Assembly: GCA_902577575.1 (NCBI GenBank)
Contig: CACGZQ010000003.1
Location: forward strand, 28,084 to 92,083
Direction of reading: 5' to 3'
Source: an uncultured Pelagibacteraceae bacterium
Lineage (GTDB): Bacteria; Pseudomonadota; Alphaproteobacteria; Pelagibacterales; Pelagibacteraceae
DNA: 64,000 nt
Every line of letters starts with the position of its first letter. The stretch's first letter is position 1. The notes beneath the pieces were generated by a model. The model searched no databases and was not told the origin of the DNA. It saw only the letters and a list, made by a program, of their open reading frames with translations. Made by a program: the position numbers and the translations under genes. Shown here piece after piece: positions 1,697-44,965 of this stretch.

Positions 1697-2037
1697 AAAA
1701 ATATAAAATATCCAACTGTTATTAAAATTAAATATTCAATAAATGTTTTAATTTTTAAAAGAGTTTTCTTATCCTGAAATTTGTTATTGATGAATAAAGT
1801 TAATCGAGAAAAAGCCAGGTGAACCAAAATAACACTTAAAGCTATACCAAGTAAAGTATGGTAAAAGCTAAAATTTTTAAGGCCATAAAAGCAAGCTGCG
1901 ATAAATGTGAACCAGGATATATTGGTTACAAATAAAGTAATTAAAATACCTGATCCTTTTTTAAAAATACTTTGAGACTTGATGAAAGTATATGACCACA
2001 AAAGAGTGAATAAAAAACCTGCGTATTTAATTATCAT
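1693..2037 (-). CDS. Small integral membrane protein, unknown function
   Basis: I do not recognise this family. The 114-residue protein is almost entirely hydrophobic, with about four predicted membrane segments (roughly residues 3-18, 30-52, 58-83 and 98-114) separated by short Lys-rich loops. It converges on the histidine phosphatase gene with a 4-nt overlap and is divergent from the ccdA-like gene at 2088, so the 50-base gap 2038-2087 must hold both promoters. The reading frame has the AT-rich codon use of its neighbours and no obvious fault. Confidence 0.55.
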   Translation of the reverse strand: MIIKYAGFLFTLLWSYTFIKSQSIFKKGSGILITLFVTNISWFTFIAACFYGLKNFSFYHTLLGIALSVILVHLAFSRLTLFINNKFQDKKTLLKIKTFIEYLILITVGYFIFF

Positions 2038-2087
2038 GAGCCAATATTGTAATTGCGGTAAAGTTCAAAGGCAAATATAAACGTTAT

Positions 2088-2804
2088 ATGATCATTAAAC
2101 TTGTGTTTGCTTTTGGGGCTGGATTTATAAGTTTTCTCACCCCTTGCGTACTTCCAATTATCCCGGGTTATATTTCATATATTACTGGAAAAGATTTAGG
2201 GGAAATAGATAAAGACAAATCAATAGTTTTGACTAAAACTATTCTTTTTTCACTTGGTTTTTCATTTGTTTTTATAACACTTGGAGCTGCTGCCTCTGCA
2301 ATAGGAAACGTACTTCTTTTCTTTTCAAATGAATTACGAATTGTTGCAGGATTAATAATTATTGTTTTTTCATTACAAATGTTAGGTTTTTTAAATTTTT
2401 CTTTTTTAAATACTGAAAAAAGAATTCAAACTAATTCAAATTATAAAGATAATTATGCATTTCCATTTATAGTTGGTGCGGCTTTTGCATTTGGCTGGAC
2501 ACCATGTATTGGTCCGGTTTTAGGATCCATAATTGCTTTGTCGGCTACTGAGGCTACAATTAGTAAAGGGATTTTATTATTATCATTTTATTCTTTAGGA
2601 TTAGCTATCCCATTTATATTATCCGGATACTATATGAGTAGATTTTTAAATTCTAAAAAAGGTTTTGGTAAATATTATGGAACTATTACAAAATCTGGCG
2701 GAGCCATTCTTTTAATTACAGGCATCTTGATTACTACAAATTATATTCAAGTTATAAGTTATTATATTTTGACGACCTTTCCAATTCTCGCTAAAGTTGG
2801 TTAA
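2088..2804 (+). CDS. ccdA: CcdA/DsbD-family transmembrane thiol-disulfide transporter
   Basis: Carries reducing power across the inner membrane to periplasmic thioredoxin-like proteins, as in cytochrome c maturation. The 238-residue protein has six predicted membrane spans. Paired Cys residues sit in the pseudo-repeated motifs FLTPCVLP (C20) and GWTPCIGP (C140), the signature of the DsbD membrane domain. There is no N- or C-terminal periplasmic domain, so it is CcdA-like rather than full DsbD. It overlaps the following PfkB kinase by one base (TAATG). The secreted MsrB at 3709-4161 and cytochromes near 19 kb are plausible users of the electrons, but this is inference. Confidence 0.85.
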   Translation: MIIKLVFAFGAGFISFLTPCVLPIIPGYISYITGKDLGEIDKDKSIVLTKTILFSLGFSFVFITLGAAASAIGNVLLFFSNELRIVAGLIIIVFSLQMLGFLNFSFLNTEKRIQTNSNYKDNYAFPFIVGAAFAFGWTPCIGPVLGSIIALSATEATISKGILLLSFYSLGLAIPFILSGYYMSRFLNSKKGFGKYYGTITKSGGAILLITGILITTNYIQVISYYILTTFPILAKVG

Positions 2805-3706
2805 TGAGCGAAATAACAGTCTTAGGAATTTTTGTTGCTGACATAAGTTTTTCTGGACCTAAAATCCCATCAATAGGTGAAACTATTTTGGGAAAAAAAT
2901 ATAATGTAGGTCCAGGAGGAAAAGGTTGCAATCAAGCCATAGCAATTGCCAGACTCGGTGGAAATACAAACTTTATAAGTAAAATTGGTAAAGACGCATA
3001 CGGAGAGTTAGCTCTTAAAACTCTTGAAAAAAATAAAATTTCTACAGAAAATATAATTCAAGATGGCAATCAACAAACTGGCGTAGCAGGAATTTTAGTT
3101 GATCAAAATACTGGAAAAAATGCAATAAATGTAATTGTAGGTGCCCCAAGTTCTTTAAAAATAAGTGAAATTGAAAAACAAATTAATTTAATAAAAAAAT
3201 CAAAAATTTTTTTAACTCAATTAGAAGTTCCAAAAGATGTTACCTTACATTGTTTGAAAACTGCTAAAGAAAATGGATGCACTACAATTTTAAATCCTGC
3301 ACCAGCATCTGAAATTTCAAATGAGTTTTATAATAATATCGATTTTTTTACACCTAATGAAACCGAGGCCGAATTTTATACTGGAATAAAGATTACTAGC
3401 GAGAAAGAGGCAAAGCAGGCAGCAGATAAACTTTTAAATTTAGGAATAAAAAAAATAATAATTACGCTTGGAGAAAAAGGTCTCTTTTATTCTGATGGAA
3501 AAGAAGAAACTTATTTAAAAGCTAATGCAGTAAAAGCTATTGATACTACTGGCGCAGGAGATGCTTTTAATGGGGGTTTAGCTTTTGGGTTATCTAGAGA
3601 AAAACCAATAAAAGAGTGTTTAGAATTAGCAAATAAAGTTGCTGGAATATCTACAACTAAACTTGGAGCAGGGGATGCGATGCCTTTTATCCAAGATATT
3701 AGATAA
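2804..3706 (+). CDS. rbsK: PfkB-family carbohydrate kinase, probable ribokinase
   Basis: ATP-dependent sugar kinase of 300 residues, best fit ribokinase. The N-terminal signature GPGGKGCNQA is near residues 36-45 and the C-terminal signature DTTGAGDAFNGG, holding the catalytic Asp and anion hole, near 245-257. The PAPASE segment and the TPNETEAE stretch are typical of RbsK. No ribose transporter gene adjoins it, so the sugar is not proven; related PfkB kinases act on other pentoses or nucleosides. It overlaps ccdA by one base. It ends just before the convergent msrB gene at 3709. Confidence 0.82.
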   Translation: MSEITVLGIFVADISFSGPKIPSIGETILGKKYNVGPGGKGCNQAIAIARLGGNTNFISKIGKDAYGELALKTLEKNKISTENIIQDGNQQTGVAGILVDQNTGKNAINVIVGAPSSLKISEIEKQINLIKKSKIFLTQLEVPKDVTLHCLKTAKENGCTTILNPAPASEISNEFYNNIDFFTPNETEAEFYTGIKITSEKEAKQAADKLLNLGIKKIIITLGEKGLFYSDGKEETYLKANAVKAIDTTGAGDAFNGGLAFGLSREKPIKECLELANKVAGISTTKLGAGDAMPFIQDIR

Positions 3707-3708
3707 TT

Positions 3709-4161
3709 TTACTCAGGCCTGAAAATTAAACAAAGACCATTATTACAAAATCTTTTACCACTTTTAGTTGGCCCATCATTAAAGACATGTCCATGATGTG
3801 CACCGCATTTAGCACAATGATATTCTGTTCTTTTCATGCCAAATTTATAATCTATCTTAGTTTTAAATGCTCCAGGTAAAGCCTCTGAAAATGATGGCCA
3901 CCCAGTACCACTATCGAATTTACTAGTAGAAGCAAAAAGTTTGTTTCCACAATTAGCGCAATGATAAAAACCCTTTCTGCTTTCTCTTAGTAAATCACTA
4001 GAAAAGGGTCTTTCAGTACCCTCGTTAAACATTATTTCTTTTTGTTTTTTTGTAAGATTTTTATTGATAATTTTCTTTGTATTCGCAAGTAGTGAGTTTA
4101 AAGGAAGAATAAAAGATGAAAAAATTGTTAAGCTTAAATATTTTAAAAAATTTCTCCTCAT
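3709..4161 (-). CDS. msrB: Peptide-methionine (R)-S-oxide reductase, exported
   Basis: Second MsrB in the window, with an N-terminal export signal. The start MRRNFLK followed by a hydrophobic stretch to about residue 26 resembles a twin-arginine (Tat) signal. The MsrB domain follows: zinc CxxC pairs in HCANCGNKLF and HCAKCGAHHGH, and the catalytic Cys in RFCNNG. It shares the (Y/F)CNNG(I/L)CL ending with the cytoplasmic copy at 646-1023, suggesting an old duplication. It probably repairs oxidised periplasmic proteins, with reductant from a CcdA-type system. Its start overlaps the end of grxC by 4 nt, so grxC and msrB are one unit. Confidence 0.9.
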   Translation of the reverse strand: MRRNFLKYLSLTIFSSFILPLNSLLANTKKIINKNLTKKQKEIMFNEGTERPFSSDLLRESRKGFYHCANCGNKLFASTSKFDSGTGWPSFSEALPGAFKTKIDYKFGMKRTEYHCAKCGAHHGHVFNDGPTKSGKRFCNNGLCLIFRPE

Positions 4162-4418
4162 TCTCCTTTTAAAATATTATCTAATTCACCGTTTCTGTTC
4201 GCTTCCTGAAGTTTATCATTACCACCAATGTAATGATCGCCGATAAAAATTTGAGGAATAGTTCTTACACCATTAGTTCTTTGAAGCATTTCTTTAGCGT
4301 TTGCTGGATCTGCCCAAATATCTATTTCCTCTATCTCAACATTTTTTGTTTTTAATAATGCTTTAGCTGCTGCACAAAATGAGCAAGGATTGCCAGTATA
4401 CATTGTGACTTTTTTCAT
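4158..4418 (-). CDS. grxC: Glutaredoxin 3
   Basis: Small cytoplasmic glutathione-dependent disulfide reductase of 86 residues. The active site is C12-S-F-C15, a variant of the usual CPYC, and the family's cis-Pro (RTIPQIF) and GGNDKL glutathione-binding motif follow. It sits between the TIGR03643 gene upstream (2-base gap) and exported msrB downstream (4-nt overlap), suggesting a redox operon. The CSFC variant lacks the Pro that normally tunes redox potential; such variants are known in alphaproteobacteria. Confidence 0.92.
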   Translation of the reverse strand: MKKVTMYTGNPCSFCAAAKALLKTKNVEIEEIDIWADPANAKEMLQRTNGVRTIPQIFIGDHYIGGNDKLQEANRNGELDNILKGE

Positions 4419-4420
4419 AA

Positions 4421-4717
4421 TTAATATATATCAGTTAATTTAATTTTTTCTCTAAGTTTTTTTCTTCCTAATTGAAACTTTTTCCTATGTTTGATGCTTG
4501 TATTATGCACTCTTTTTCTCCATAAACGAAACGAACCTGGTTTTAAATTTTTTCGCATTATTTTAATGACTTGAGACTCATTTTTTCCAGTTTTTTCTTT
4601 TATCTCTTCAAAAGTAATCCTATCCGCCCAAGCAGCCCAAATAATCCAATTATCATCCTTTTCTTTAGGCTCAGGGTTTTTAACTCTTGTTTTAGGGATA
4701 AAACTTTTTTTCTTCAT
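4421..4717 (-). CDS. TIGR03643/DUF2805-family small basic protein
   Basis: A 98-residue, strongly basic protein. The core, roughly residues 22-75, fits the TIGR03643 (DUF2805) family: WIIWAAWADRITFEEI, then a helix-turn-helix-like segment KTGKNESQVIKIMR and LKPGSFRLWRKRV. The family function is not established; the fold prediction suggests nucleic-acid binding. It heads a minus-strand unit with grxC and exported msrB and diverges from the LysE-type transporter at 4731, with only 13 bases between start codons. Confidence 0.75.
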   Translation of the reverse strand: MKKKSFIPKTRVKNPEPKEKDDNWIIWAAWADRITFEEIKEKTGKNESQVIKIMRKNLKPGSFRLWRKRVHNTSIKHRKKFQLGRKKLREKIKLTDIY

Positions 4718-41685: not shown

Positions 41686-41882
41686 AAAGACCACCTTTTG
41701 CTATTCGATACTTAATTATTGGTGCAATATTAGTAGTACCACCAATTCTCAGCACTCATTATGGAACAATATATTTAGGTAAGCATAATGGTGTCCTTCT
41801 TGGTTTTTGCGTTGGAATAGTCTGTGTATCTTTTGCATGTTGGAAGCTTTTTATTGATGAGTGGAGGGATGACGAGGACTAA
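41682..41882 (+). CDS. Small two-span membrane protein
   Basis: 66 residues starting at a TTG codon that overlaps the stop of the preceding gene; no in-frame ATG exists. Two hydrophobic spans (about 10-21 and 37-55) are followed by an acidic tail IDEWRDDED. It shares one base with the photolyase-like gene (TAATG). Unknown function; its tight place in the operon supports it being real. Confidence 0.5.
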   Translation: MKRPPFAIRYLIIGAILVVPPILSTHYGTIYLGKHNGVLLGFCVGIVCVSFACWKLFIDEWRDDED

Positions 41883-43018
41883 TGAAATTCGAAATCTCAA
41901 GAGAAGGAGCGTTAAAGCAGCTCGATGATTTTATAAACAGTGAACTTACAAATTATAGTTTCAAAAGAAATTTTGATTTAGGACCAAAAGACAAATCAAA
42001 TGTATCTTGCTTATCACCGTACATCTCTCATAGATTAATAACTGAATATGAAGTCGCAAAGATAGTTTTAGCAAAATTTCCATATCAAAAAGTTGAAAAA
42101 TATATCCAAGAAATATTTTGGAGAGTTTACTGGAAAGGTTGGTTAGAACTTAGACCTCAAGTTTGGACTGACTTTATAGAGGATTTAAAAGGATTAAAGG
42201 AAGATAACAATTATAAAAAAGCTATTAACGGTGAAACTCAAATTGAATGTTTTAATGATTGGGTAAAAGAGCTTAAAGAAAATAATTATTTACATAATCA
42301 TACTAGAATGTGGTTTGCTAGCATTTGGATATTTACTTTAAATCTACCTTGGCAAAAAGGCGCTGAATTCTTTATGAAACATTTATTTGATGGTGACGCT
42401 GCTTCTAACACCTTGAGTTGGAGATGGGTTGCTGGACTTCAAACTAGAGGAAAGCACTACGTTGCTCAGTCATGGAATATAAGCAAGTTTACAAATAATA
42501 AATATAAGAATGTTAAATTAAACGAGAACGCTTTGCCTTTAATAGATAAAAAAGAATATAAATTAAATCCACTTAATTTTAATGTAGAAGATAATTCAAA
42601 TGAAAATTTATTACTTTTCGAGAACGAATTAAATTTAGAGAATAAAAATTTAAAAAAATATAAAAATATTTACCTAGTTTTGCTAAGAAATAATGTTCGA
42701 AAGCTAAAGCTTGGACAAAAGGTACTAGACTATAAATCAGAAATAATTAATGATCAAAAAAAAAGATTTAAAGATTTACAAATCATAGATGAGGTAAAAT
42801 TTCAAACTCTTGTAGATGAAATTAACTCATTTGATGTTGTCCACCCATGCATTGGAGAGAATTTTTCTTTTTTAAATACTGTTAGAAAAAAGCAAAATTT
42901 AGAATTAAACTTCGTTTTGAGTGAGGAAGATAAATTTTCTTGGCAGTTTTCTAATAAAGGGTATTTTAATTTTAAAAATAATATTCCTAAAATTTTAACT
43001 AGTTTTAATTTGCAATAA
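41882..43018 (+). CDS. Photolyase/cryptochrome-like protein with FAD domain at the N-terminus
   Basis: 378 residues. Residues about 1-205 are a photolyase-type FAD-binding domain: CLSPYISHRLIT (43-54), YWKGWLELR (83-91), LHNHTRMWFASIW (137-149) and FMKHLFDGDAASNTLSWRWVAG (164-185). The antenna alpha/beta domain that normally precedes this is missing. Instead, residues about 240-378 begin LLLFENELNLENKNL, which recalls the L(V)WFRxDLRLxDN start of a photolyase antenna domain, so the domains may be in swapped order. DNA repair or light sensing are both possible. Two genes later on the other strand come DUF2256 and a second photolyase homologue. Confidence 0.75.
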   Translation: MKFEISREGALKQLDDFINSELTNYSFKRNFDLGPKDKSNVSCLSPYISHRLITEYEVAKIVLAKFPYQKVEKYIQEIFWRVYWKGWLELRPQVWTDFIEDLKGLKEDNNYKKAINGETQIECFNDWVKELKENNYLHNHTRMWFASIWIFTLNLPWQKGAEFFMKHLFDGDAASNTLSWRWVAGLQTRGKHYVAQSWNISKFTNNKYKNVKLNENALPLIDKKEYKLNPLNFNVEDNSNENLLLFENELNLENKNLKKYKNIYLVLLRNNVRKLKLGQKVLDYKSEIINDQKKRFKDLQIIDEVKFQTLVDEINSFDVVHPCIGENFSFLNTVRKKQNLELNFVLSEEDKFSWQFSNKGYFNFKNNIPKILTSFNLQ

Positions 43019-43019
43019 T

Positions 43020-43145
43020 CTATTTAGAAGAACACTTTTTTGAGCAATATTTTACTTTGTCCCAATTAAGCCTCCATTTTTTTCTCCAAGTAAAAGGTTT
43101 ATTACAAACCGTACAAGTTTTTTTAGGCAAATTAGCTTTTTTCAT
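43020..43145 (-). CDS. DUF2256-family small zinc-binding protein
   Basis: A 41-residue protein, MKKANLPKKTCTVCNKPF and on, with CxxC at C11/C14 and YCSKKC at C34/C38, plus a WRKKWRLNWDKV centre. This is the DUF2256 signature, a tiny likely zinc ribbon usually found next to cryptochrome/photolyase genes, as here. It overlaps the start region of the photolyase-like gene's 3' flank closely (2 bases after its stop) and its start overlaps the DUF393 gene by 14 bases. Confidence 0.88.
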   Translation of the reverse strand: MKKANLPKKTCTVCNKPFTWRKKWRLNWDKVKYCSKKCSSK

Positions 43146-43491
43146 CGTTCAGAAGGTGTTTATTTTTTATAAATAGAAAATAAGCTGCGATCTCATAAAA
43201 AATATTTAATATGAAAAATAGAGGCTTAATTTTAAATATTTTATATAAAAAATTATATTTAGGAACATTTTTCCAAATTATTAAAAAAGACTCTGCTCCA
43301 TCAATTACTCTACCATCTTGTATAACATGCATTCTTCTTAATAGTTCTCTGTATGATTTTGAGGTAACTTTCTGAGCTTCTTCATTATTAGTTACATCTA
43401 TCCATTCTACACTGTTATCACTATGTTTTTTGTAATGATTGATTTCGGCTCTACAAATATTACATGAATTGTTAAAAAAAACTTTAACCAT
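43132..43491 (-). CDS. DUF393 (DCC-family) thiol-disulfide-like protein
   Basis: 119 residues. The N-terminal FFNNSCNICRAEINHYKKH holds a CxxC (C10, C13), the mark of the DCC/DUF393 family with a predicted thioredoxin fold. GAESFLIIWKNVPKY and a hydrophobic tail follow. It overlaps the cryptochrome gene upstream by eight bases and DUF2256 downstream, forming a minus-strand three-gene unit. DCC proteins are frequent photolyase neighbours; the reaction is unknown. Confidence 0.82.
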   Translation of the reverse strand: MVKVFFNNSCNICRAEINHYKKHSDNSVEWIDVTNNEEAQKVTSKSYRELLRRMHVIQDGRVIDGAESFLIIWKNVPKYNFLYKIFKIKPLFFILNIFYEIAAYFLFIKNKHLLNDEKS

Positions 43492-44965
43492 TAGTATTTT
43501 CTTTTATAAAATTATTGGCAGCTTTAAAAATTCTTGTTTTTCTCTCTTTATTCATTTTTTCAGAAACTCTAACCATCATTGCAAGGCGTGGATTTTTTAA
43601 GAAGAATTTCCTATGTCTGTCTATAAATTTCCAATATAATCCATCCATGACATCACACCAGGGACCTTTTTTAAAATGCATCATTTTAAGAAAATAACTA
43701 GATCCACAAATATAAGGTTTAGTTGCAAAAATCCCCCCGTCACTAAACAATCCCATTCCATAAACATTTGGCGCCATCACCCAGTCAGATGAGTCCACAA
43801 ACATTTCCATAAACCATTTGTAAATTTGTTTAGGATTTATCTCACAAAGATTCATTATGTTAGCCAATATCATTAGTCTTTCTATGTGATGTGACCAGCC
43901 AAAGTTTTTAGCATTATTGATCGCATGGTCTAACGGATCTAAACCAGTGTTTCCATCATACCAAGATTTTTTCATTTTTCTTTTATGATTAAAAAAATTA
44001 GAGTTATCTAATCGTTGATCATAGTTTTGATAAATTCCTCTCATAAACTCTCTCCAACCAATAATCTGCCTGATATAACCTTCTAAGGAATTCATAGGTA
44101 TTTTATTTTCAATCTTTCTTAATTTCTCTATTATTTCATCTGGAGCTATTAAACCTAAGTTTATTATTGGACTTAACGCGCTATGAAAAACAGTATTAGA
44201 TTTGTCTGTTACTGCGTCTTCATAATCTCCAAACAGCTTTATTCTCTCTTTCAAAAATTCATCTAGCCACTTAGTTGCGTCTTTTCGTGTTGTTGGAAAC
44301 CAAAACTTATCAGTATTTCCTGGATGATCTTTAAAATTAGAATTTATAAATTTTTTGAGAGCAGCAGTATCCTTTGTCTCTTTTACCTTAGAAATTATTG
44401 GGACTTTAATAGTATTTGGAAGCTTTTTTCTATTTTCTTCATCAAAACTCCATTTATTTCCTTTTGGAGTTCCGTTTTTATTCATTAATAAATTCATTTT
44501 TGTTCTTACAATTTTATAAAAATTTGCCATGAAAGGTCGCTTGTTTTTAGAAAGGTAATCTTTGAATTCTTGTCTTTCCATTAAAAACATTGGAGACTTA
44601 ATCTGATTAATTTTAAGTGAATTTTTTTTTCCTAAATTTAATATTCTTTTTTCAAAAAATTTATCCTCAATTTCAAAAAAAGTAATTTCCTTTATCTTTT
44701 TTTCTTTAATAGTTTTTTCTAATTTTTTTTCATAGGACAATTTAAAATCTTTATTAACATCTTTATATATTAAATTAAAATTTTTAGATTTTAGCTCATC
44801 CTTAAATGATCTCATTGAAGACAGAAATAACAGTATTTTTAATTTATGATGTTTTTCAAAAGTACATAGTCCATAGTCTTCTGCCATAAAGAAGGTATGG
44901 TCTTTATATTCAGAGAGATATTTTGGGTTAAATAGTTGATTTCCTAAAATTATAAAAAGCTTCAT
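43484..44965 (-). CDS. Cryptochrome/photolyase-family protein (COG3046, FeS-BCP/PhrB type)
   Basis: 493 residues, the length of bacterial (6-4) photolyases/CryB. The N-terminal antenna domain starts MKLFIILGNQL; the FAD domain includes HSALSPIINLGLI, EGYIRQIIGWREFMRG and SSDWVMAPNVYGMGLFSDGGIFATKPY. In PhrB a [4Fe-4S] cluster is held by four Cys, two in a CxxC after the KPY segment. Here that place reads HFKKGPWCDVMDGLYW, without a CxxC, and the first-ligand region (NTGLDPLDHAIN) has no Cys. So the cluster is probably absent. It may repair (6-4) lesions or sense blue light. Confidence 0.82.
   Translation of the reverse strand: MKLFIILGNQLFNPKYLSEYKDHTFFMAEDYGLCTFEKHHKLKILLFLSSMRSFKDELKSKNFNLIYKDVNKDFKLSYEKKLEKTIKEKKIKEITFFEIEDKFFEKRILNLGKKNSLKINQIKSPMFLMERQEFKDYLSKNKRPFMANFYKIVRTKMNLLMNKNGTPKGNKWSFDEENRKKLPNTIKVPIISKVKETKDTAALKKFINSNFKDHPGNTDKFWFPTTRKDATKWLDEFLKERIKLFGDYEDAVTDKSNTVFHSALSPIINLGLIAPDEIIEKLRKIENKIPMNSLEGYIRQIIGWREFMRGIYQNYDQRLDNSNFFNHKRKMKKSWYDGNTGLDPLDHAINNAKNFGWSHHIERLMILANIMNLCEINPKQIYKWFMEMFVDSSDWVMAPNVYGMGLFSDGGIFATKPYICGSSYFLKMMHFKKGPWCDVMDGLYWKFIDRHRKFFLKNPRLAMMVRVSEKMNKERKTRIFKAANNFIKENTNG

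Follow-up and report, generated by a model that had tools for sequence, protein, structure and literature searches.

A probable NewPHL-class photolyase of SAR11 with inverted domain order and a C-terminal domain related to photolyase antennas

One gene in a 64,000-nucleotide stretch of Pelagibacterales (SAR11) DNA, hereafter the window, very probably encodes a CPD photolyase of the NewPHL class, composed of an N-terminal catalytic domain and a C-terminal Rossmann-like homologue of the photolyase antenna. Because they seem to have no antenna, NewPHL and SPL proteins have been put forward as the simplest, ancestral type within the photolyase/cryptochrome family. The main added value of our analysis is evidence that the C-terminal 'Z' domain is a displaced antenna, and that the same holds for the domain which short photolyases had seemed to lack. 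With the supposedly unrelated lid domain linked to the antenna and an antenna-like gene found downstream of all nine split relatives examined, 'primitive absence' and 'permutation and decay' become testable against each other. SAR11 bacteria are among the most abundant organisms of sunlit seawater; they often retain the NewPHL-type enzyme in a streamlined genome, beside other photolyases.

Domain layout of the SAR11 protein

The initial annotation had described a plus-strand photolyase-like frame with no space for an N-terminal antenna and an antenna-like opening behind the FAD domain, and this observation is confirmed. Alignment with solved photolyases equated residues 4-193 with residues 201-395 of the E. 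coli enzyme and residues 8-186 with residues 228-409 of the Agrobacterium class III photolyase; catalytic homology thus starts from residue ~4 and leaves no room for an antenna in front. The FAD-binding motifs, which had been placed between residues ~40 and ~200, are present, but over a slightly different range, the FAD/active-site positions extending from Y25 to W182. The opening of the C-terminal domain was borne out by a modelled hydrophobic strand at residues 242-246 (LLLFE), followed by NELNLENKNL.

FAD_binding_7 is the sole Pfam domain of the protein (residues 75-197, E 3.7e-16), and it is incomplete, covering only profile positions 2-129 of 203. NCBIfam photolyase models matched over residues ~2-206, far under their cut-offs; the DASH cryptochrome model TIGR02765 gave 48.6 bits against a cut-off of 317. 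Pfam returned no match in the protein to either PF00875 (the N-terminal antenna) or PF04244 (DPRP), and the ~180 residues after the catalytic domain are named by no domain library. In the PDB search, 40 of 40 matches belonged to classical families and covered the catalytic half only, with no NewPHL structure among them. Features are collected in Table 1.

Table 1. Coordinates of the photolyase gene, its domains and motifs, and the neighbouring genes in the window.
Feature	Position	Strand	Remarks
NewPHL-type photolyase with inverted domain order	41882..43018	+	CDS, 378 aa
Catalytic FAD domain, N-terminal	41882..42496	+	residues 1-205; counterpart of E. coli photolyase ~200-395
E77-I-F-W80-R81	42110..42124	+	E. 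coli E274/W277/R278 by alignment; invariant in compared sequences
H138-N139-H-T-R142-M143	42293..42310	+	E. coli N341/R344/M345 by alignment; CPD-photolyase active site
D170, D172, N176, W180, W182	42389..42427	+	FAD-binding Asp/Asn and electron-transfer/substrate Trp, by alignment
Inter-domain linker	42497..42598	+	residues 206-239; largely irregular in the model; at the site of the classical last helices
Antenna-like ('Z') domain, C-terminal	42599..43015	+	residues 240-378; five strands alternating with helices
NewPHL Z-domain C-terminal motif D350...W354...KG(Y/F)F(N/K)FKxxIP	42929..42988	+	residues 350-369; conserved
DUF2256 (PF10013) Cys-rich protein	43020..43145	-	41 aa; convergent; E 8.1e-19
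DCC1-like thiol-disulfide oxidoreductase	43132..43491	-
Second photolyase, DPRP/PhrB type	43484..44965	-	normal domain order; conserved beside the NewPHL gene in SAR11

Active site and electron-transfer chain

The motifs of Table 1 were read against E. coli photolyase, in which E274, W277 and R278 contact the CPD and N341, R344, M345, D372, D374, N378, W382 and W384 have FAD or active-site roles. The last five of these align with D170, D172, N176, W180 and W182, respectively. Across the 24 NewPHL-type sequences compared, the FAD positions Y25, S42, L44 and S45 are identical, and E77/W80/R81, H138-N139, R142-M143, D170, D172, N176, W180 and W182 are invariant, one W182Q excepted; class I CPD photolyases agree with the SAR11 protein at nearly all FAD/active-site positions checked. 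The Trp chain is reduced to a dyad, W180 and W157 (equivalent to E. coli W359), the position of W306 being occupied by Glu107. A 'mere Trp dyad' has likewise been described for the NewPHL of Dinoroseobacter shibae (PMC8948257). The FAD-proximal Asn (CraCRY N395 equivalent), reported as kept in NewPHL (PMC12083526), corresponds to the invariant N176. None of the 24 sequences has the Fe-S CxxC...CP motif found in Deinococcus and some split relatives.

These active-site residues are compatible with light-dependent repair of CPDs in single-stranded DNA. By analogy with the family, FAD would be photoreduced through the two-Trp chain of W180 and W157; blue or near-UV light would excite FADH-, an electron would pass to the CPD and the dimer would split. 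To judge by the class and by which residues are conserved, the CPD would be held by E77, W80, N139, M143 and W182, and single-stranded DNA would probably be preferred, as in the family.

Comparison with known photolyase classes

The initial annotation's statement that photolyases place the antenna first has published exceptions in NewPHL and Phr6. The inverted order is therefore not new, being already known from NewPHL/SPL photolyases, Prochlorococcus Phr7 and the inverted Synechococcus Phr4/5/6. As described in PMC9426592 and PMC13274461, NewPHLs (Emmerich 2020) consist of an N-terminal FAD domain and a C-terminal Z-domain and repair CPDs in single-stranded DNA; the Z-domain has been termed an 'atypical, short photolyase domain' (PMC9426592). 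By sequence, the SAR11 protein has the NewPHL features checked, namely inverted order, a CPD-type active site, a Trp dyad and no Fe-S cysteines. It shares these with the NewPHLs of D. shibae and Methylobacterium mesophilicum and with Prochlorococcus Phr7, along with the N-terminal FAD domain, the short C-terminal Z-domain and the absence of an N-terminal antenna, but its own Z-domain is very divergent and AT-rich, and the likeness is judged from class descriptions.

The Synechococcus/Cyanobium proteins Phr4/Phr5 (split) and Phr6 (fused) (PMC9426592) similarly have the FAD domain first and the antenna behind, and belong to the sister clade. Phr4 and Phr6 differ in bearing Fe-S cysteines and a recognisable antenna, both of which are missing from the SAR11 protein, whose two domains always form one chain. 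SPL proteins, described as possible family ancestors (Xu 2021, as cited in PMC9649867), resemble it in having no N-terminal alpha/beta domain; in the descriptions cited in PMC9649867 and PMC9178010, however, they contain an Fe-S cluster and no alpha/beta domain, which sets apart the SAR11 protein, with its modelled C-terminal alpha/beta domain and no Fe-S cysteines. Class I CPD photolyases (E. coli PhrB and the SAR11 copy at G000:C1) share the catalytic domain and active-site residues, but place the antenna first and have ~75 more C-terminal FAD-domain residues and the third Trp (W306). The prokaryotic (6-4)/FeS-BCP/DPRP proteins, neighbours of the NewPHL-type gene in SAR11 genomes, have a '(K)PY...N...K' stretch in common with the SAR11 protein, behind the catalytic core; they differ in their N-terminal DPRP (PF04244) antenna and other active-site residues, and the SAR11 protein falls outside this group by the absence of a PF04244 match and of the four-cysteine Fe-S motif.

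Relation of the C-terminal domain to photolyase antennas

An AlphaFold2 model of the whole protein, built with 30 SAR11 sequences, reached a pLDDT of 90.5 and a pTM of 0.89. It predicts the C-terminal ~140 residues to be a five-stranded, Rossmann-like alpha/beta domain (strands E, helices H: E242-246, E262-266, H279-295, E299-302, H304-313, E316-320, H325-338, E341-345, then helices), with strands and helices alternating in the order seen in photolyase antennas. The Z-domain folded alone had a pLDDT of 80.9. When this isolated model was compared with the PDB using Foldseek, the highest TM-scores by query length, among the matches listed, were those of photolyases (0.51-0.54), including the antenna-half matches 5kcm (TMq 0.54) and 2j07/1iqr (TMq 0.52, rmsd 3.5 Å). 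With antennas among the top PDB matches, the C-terminal fold did not prove unrelated to the Rossmann-like antenna, and the permutation suggested by the initial annotation survived this comparison. The HUP-type Rossmann fold is common to photolyase antennas and phosphopantetheine adenylyltransferases (PPATs), and PPATs came first by Foldseek E-value (7.1e-4). Because they rank ahead of photolyases by this measure, structural similarity by itself is not specific; the predicted fold is compatible with an antenna.

A profile of the SAR11 Z-domain by itself gave no significant match to antennas (E 0.1-0.5; hhalign E-values throughout are for single comparisons), and intermediate families were therefore used. 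The first link is the alignment of the SAR11 Z-domain with alphaproteobacterial Z-domains, on which its relation to antennas rests. Alphaproteobacterial Z-domains matched small antenna-like (Phr5-like) proteins end to end and collinearly (E 3e-5; reversed control 0.38); with gap-trimmed input the same pair gave E 2.8e-4, with none of 100 column shuffles as good and a z of 7.5. The Phr5-like family in turn matched diverse classical antennas end to end (E 6.8e-10; 0 of 60 shuffles as good). An antenna profile made from SAR11-order photolyases only was too narrow and non-collinear on gap-trimmed input, which the diverse profile solved. Compared directly, Z-domains and antennas match weakly (E 0.006-0.05), yet in register, with 0 of 60 shuffles as good. 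In the Deinococcus relative, the PF00875 antenna model itself matches behind the FAD domain (residues 300-395, E 7e-4). At the level of profiles, the Z-domain is thus shown to be homologous, via intermediates, to the N-terminal antenna of other photolyases, and the inverted-order reading of the SAR11 photolyase is supported. Of the proposed circular permutation, the fold and the profile chain sustain the inversion of domain order; a residue-exact permutation does not hold, the usual FAD domain having lost ~75 residues at its end.

As for its role, the Z-domain would mainly close the FAD pocket, standing in for the last helices that are absent here, and its antenna chromophore may be gone. Alternatively, instead of being a mere lid, it could still harvest light as an antenna with a bound chromophore (flavin, deazaflavin, folate or lumazine). 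Homology to antennas and the strong conservation of the C-terminal motif D...W...KGFFxFKxxIP would suit such a role; we nevertheless regard it as unlikely, given that the NewPHL Z-domain is reportedly described in Emmerich 2020 as sealing the FAD site, and that the sequence here is too divergent for chromophore-pocket residues to be mapped.

More doubtful still is an origin outside the photolyase family, by which a Rossmann/HUP-fold domain, derived for example from a nucleotidyltransferase, was joined to an ancestral FAD domain that had no antenna and came to resemble an antenna by convergence. The first rank of PPATs, the non-significant direct comparison of the SAR11 Z-domain with antennas, and the view that short photolyases are ancestral and without an alpha/beta domain (Xu 2021, as cited in PMC9649867) all point that way. 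The best PPAT matches, however, superpose with an rmsd of ~10 Å and a TM-score of 0.46, below those of the photolyases; the profile chain runs end to end from alphaproteobacterial Z-domains through Phr5-like proteins to classical antennas; and the sister clade has a PF00875 antenna at the same place, behind the FAD domain. Homology to the antenna is the reading that we retain.

Split and fused relatives

In the nine alphaproteobacterial genomes examined here, the match ended after the FAD domain, in open frames mostly of 246-309 aa. For all nine of these 'FAD-only' relatives (INTERMEDIATES; L145/L163, L146 and L164-L170), the adjacent same-strand downstream ORF encodes an antenna-like protein (131-180 aa), often in overlap with the FAD-only gene; some pairs share an ATGA (1426/1429 in L145, 2196/2199 in L146). 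These split pairs correspond, in Alphaproteobacteria, to Synechococcus phr4/phr5 (PMC9426592), and the presence of the second gene in nine of nine argues against short photolyases as primitively antenna-less. If that gene is overlooked, such pairs could pass for 'short photolyases'. The Deinococcus relative joins both domains in one protein, with the FAD domain leading, and has an Fe-S-type CxxC...CP motif; a Persicobacter protein is also FAD-first. On the Persicobacter plasmid (L116), the gene for an inverted-order photolyase (1863-3038) overlaps that for a normal-order photolyase/cryptochrome-like protein (2971-4494), in an unannotated stretch.

In a catalytic-domain tree, the sampling of which excludes the characterised NewPHLs A8LJA9, M7YZC8, Q2N8F4 and B6IPR5, the NewPHL-type proteins group together (99/99), with the split and inverted proteins as their sister group (91/85). 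The protein of Ruegeria TM1040 (P0003), an organism of D. shibae's order, shares a clade with the SAR11 protein (99/99). Both groups stand apart from class I and DPRP photolyases; the deeper branching order is uncertain because DPRP and one further sequence sit on long branches.

The following history would accommodate these forms. An antenna-first photolyase may have split into a catalytic gene and a downstream antenna gene, the state seen in the relatives; the two genes would then have been re-fused in inverted order, and the antenna would have diverged into the Z-domain. We lean, by a modest degree, towards regarding short and inverted photolyases (NewPHL, SPL, Phr4-6) as derived forms, permuted via a split-gene stage, in which the antenna decayed into the NewPHL flavin lid, rather than as antenna-less ancestors. 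For the 'short' photolyases put forward as ancestors of the family, the data point to something other than a simple lack of the antenna.

Occurrence and selection

We searched for homologues to see how far the domain order extends. An intact full-length ORF, 52-93% identical and with no internal stops, was present in 50 of the 101 SAR11-order genomes searched, a lower bound since many of these genomes are incomplete. The nearest named genomes for the protein are those of uncultured Pelagibacteraceae (92-93% protein identity), in keeping with a window from Pelagibacterales. Other Alphaproteobacteria also have the gene: Ruegeria TM1040 and Peteryoungia encode full-length homologues, as do ~7% of 385 sampled Alphaproteobacteria (28 full-length places). 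A frame length of 370-390 aa is kept across the 50 SAR11-order genomes and Rhodobacterales, Rhizobiales, Caulobacterales and Sphingomonadales. No relatives were found in the viral contigs searched; phage matches and most plasmid matches were ordinary photolyases, aligning with residues ~3-193 only, and were set aside.

Both halves of the gene are under purifying selection: within SAR11 (12 pairs), pN/pS lies between 0.05 and 0.20 in the catalytic half and between 0.10 and 0.29 in the C-terminal half. This has a bearing on whether the protein still repairs DNA. Three FAD_binding_7 proteins are encoded in the genome (a class I enzyme, the NewPHL-type protein and a DPRP), so redundancy is possible, and with the electron-transfer chain down to two Trp the protein could have lost repair and now serve as a cryptochrome-type blue-light receptor, or be a degenerate paralogue. 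Such a loss seems very improbable to us in view of the strong selection on the catalytic domain and the retention of the CPD active-site set E77, W80, N139, M143 and W182, and characterised NewPHLs do repair CPDs (PMC9426592, PMC13274461). A prediction or assembly artefact, in which a truncated photolyase runs into an unrelated ORF, or a pseudogene, can be dismissed: no supporting point was found, and the same frame recurs in the 50 SAR11-order genomes and in other orders, with selection on both halves. The intact frame in 50 of 101 genomes, together with purifying selection on the C-terminal domain, also makes the ORF more than a chance one.

Genomic neighbourhood

The usual order in SAR11 is the NewPHL gene followed by the convergent DUF2256 gene, the DCC1-like oxidoreductase gene and the DPRP-type photolyase gene, a DPRP match being found at 102 of 144 loci. 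The DUF2256 gene lies one base from the photolyase stop codon and is under the size cut of most ORF lists. The DPRP photolyase of the window has 'YFLKMMHFKKGPWC' at the position where Fe-S (6-4) photolyases bear a CxxC pair, and with this replacement it is probably without an Fe-S cluster, like Prochlorococcus PromaPL. Some SAR11 strains (L037, L049 and L053) have an insert of ~2.7 kb between the photolyase and DCC1 genes; the insert in L037 includes an 869-aa ORF, parts of which, by eye, resemble cyclic-nucleotide-binding, acyltransferase and SGNH-hydrolase sequences. In Peteryoungia and Ruegeria (L111, L112), the NewPHL gene adjoins a gene of the AarF/ABC1/UbiB kinase family.
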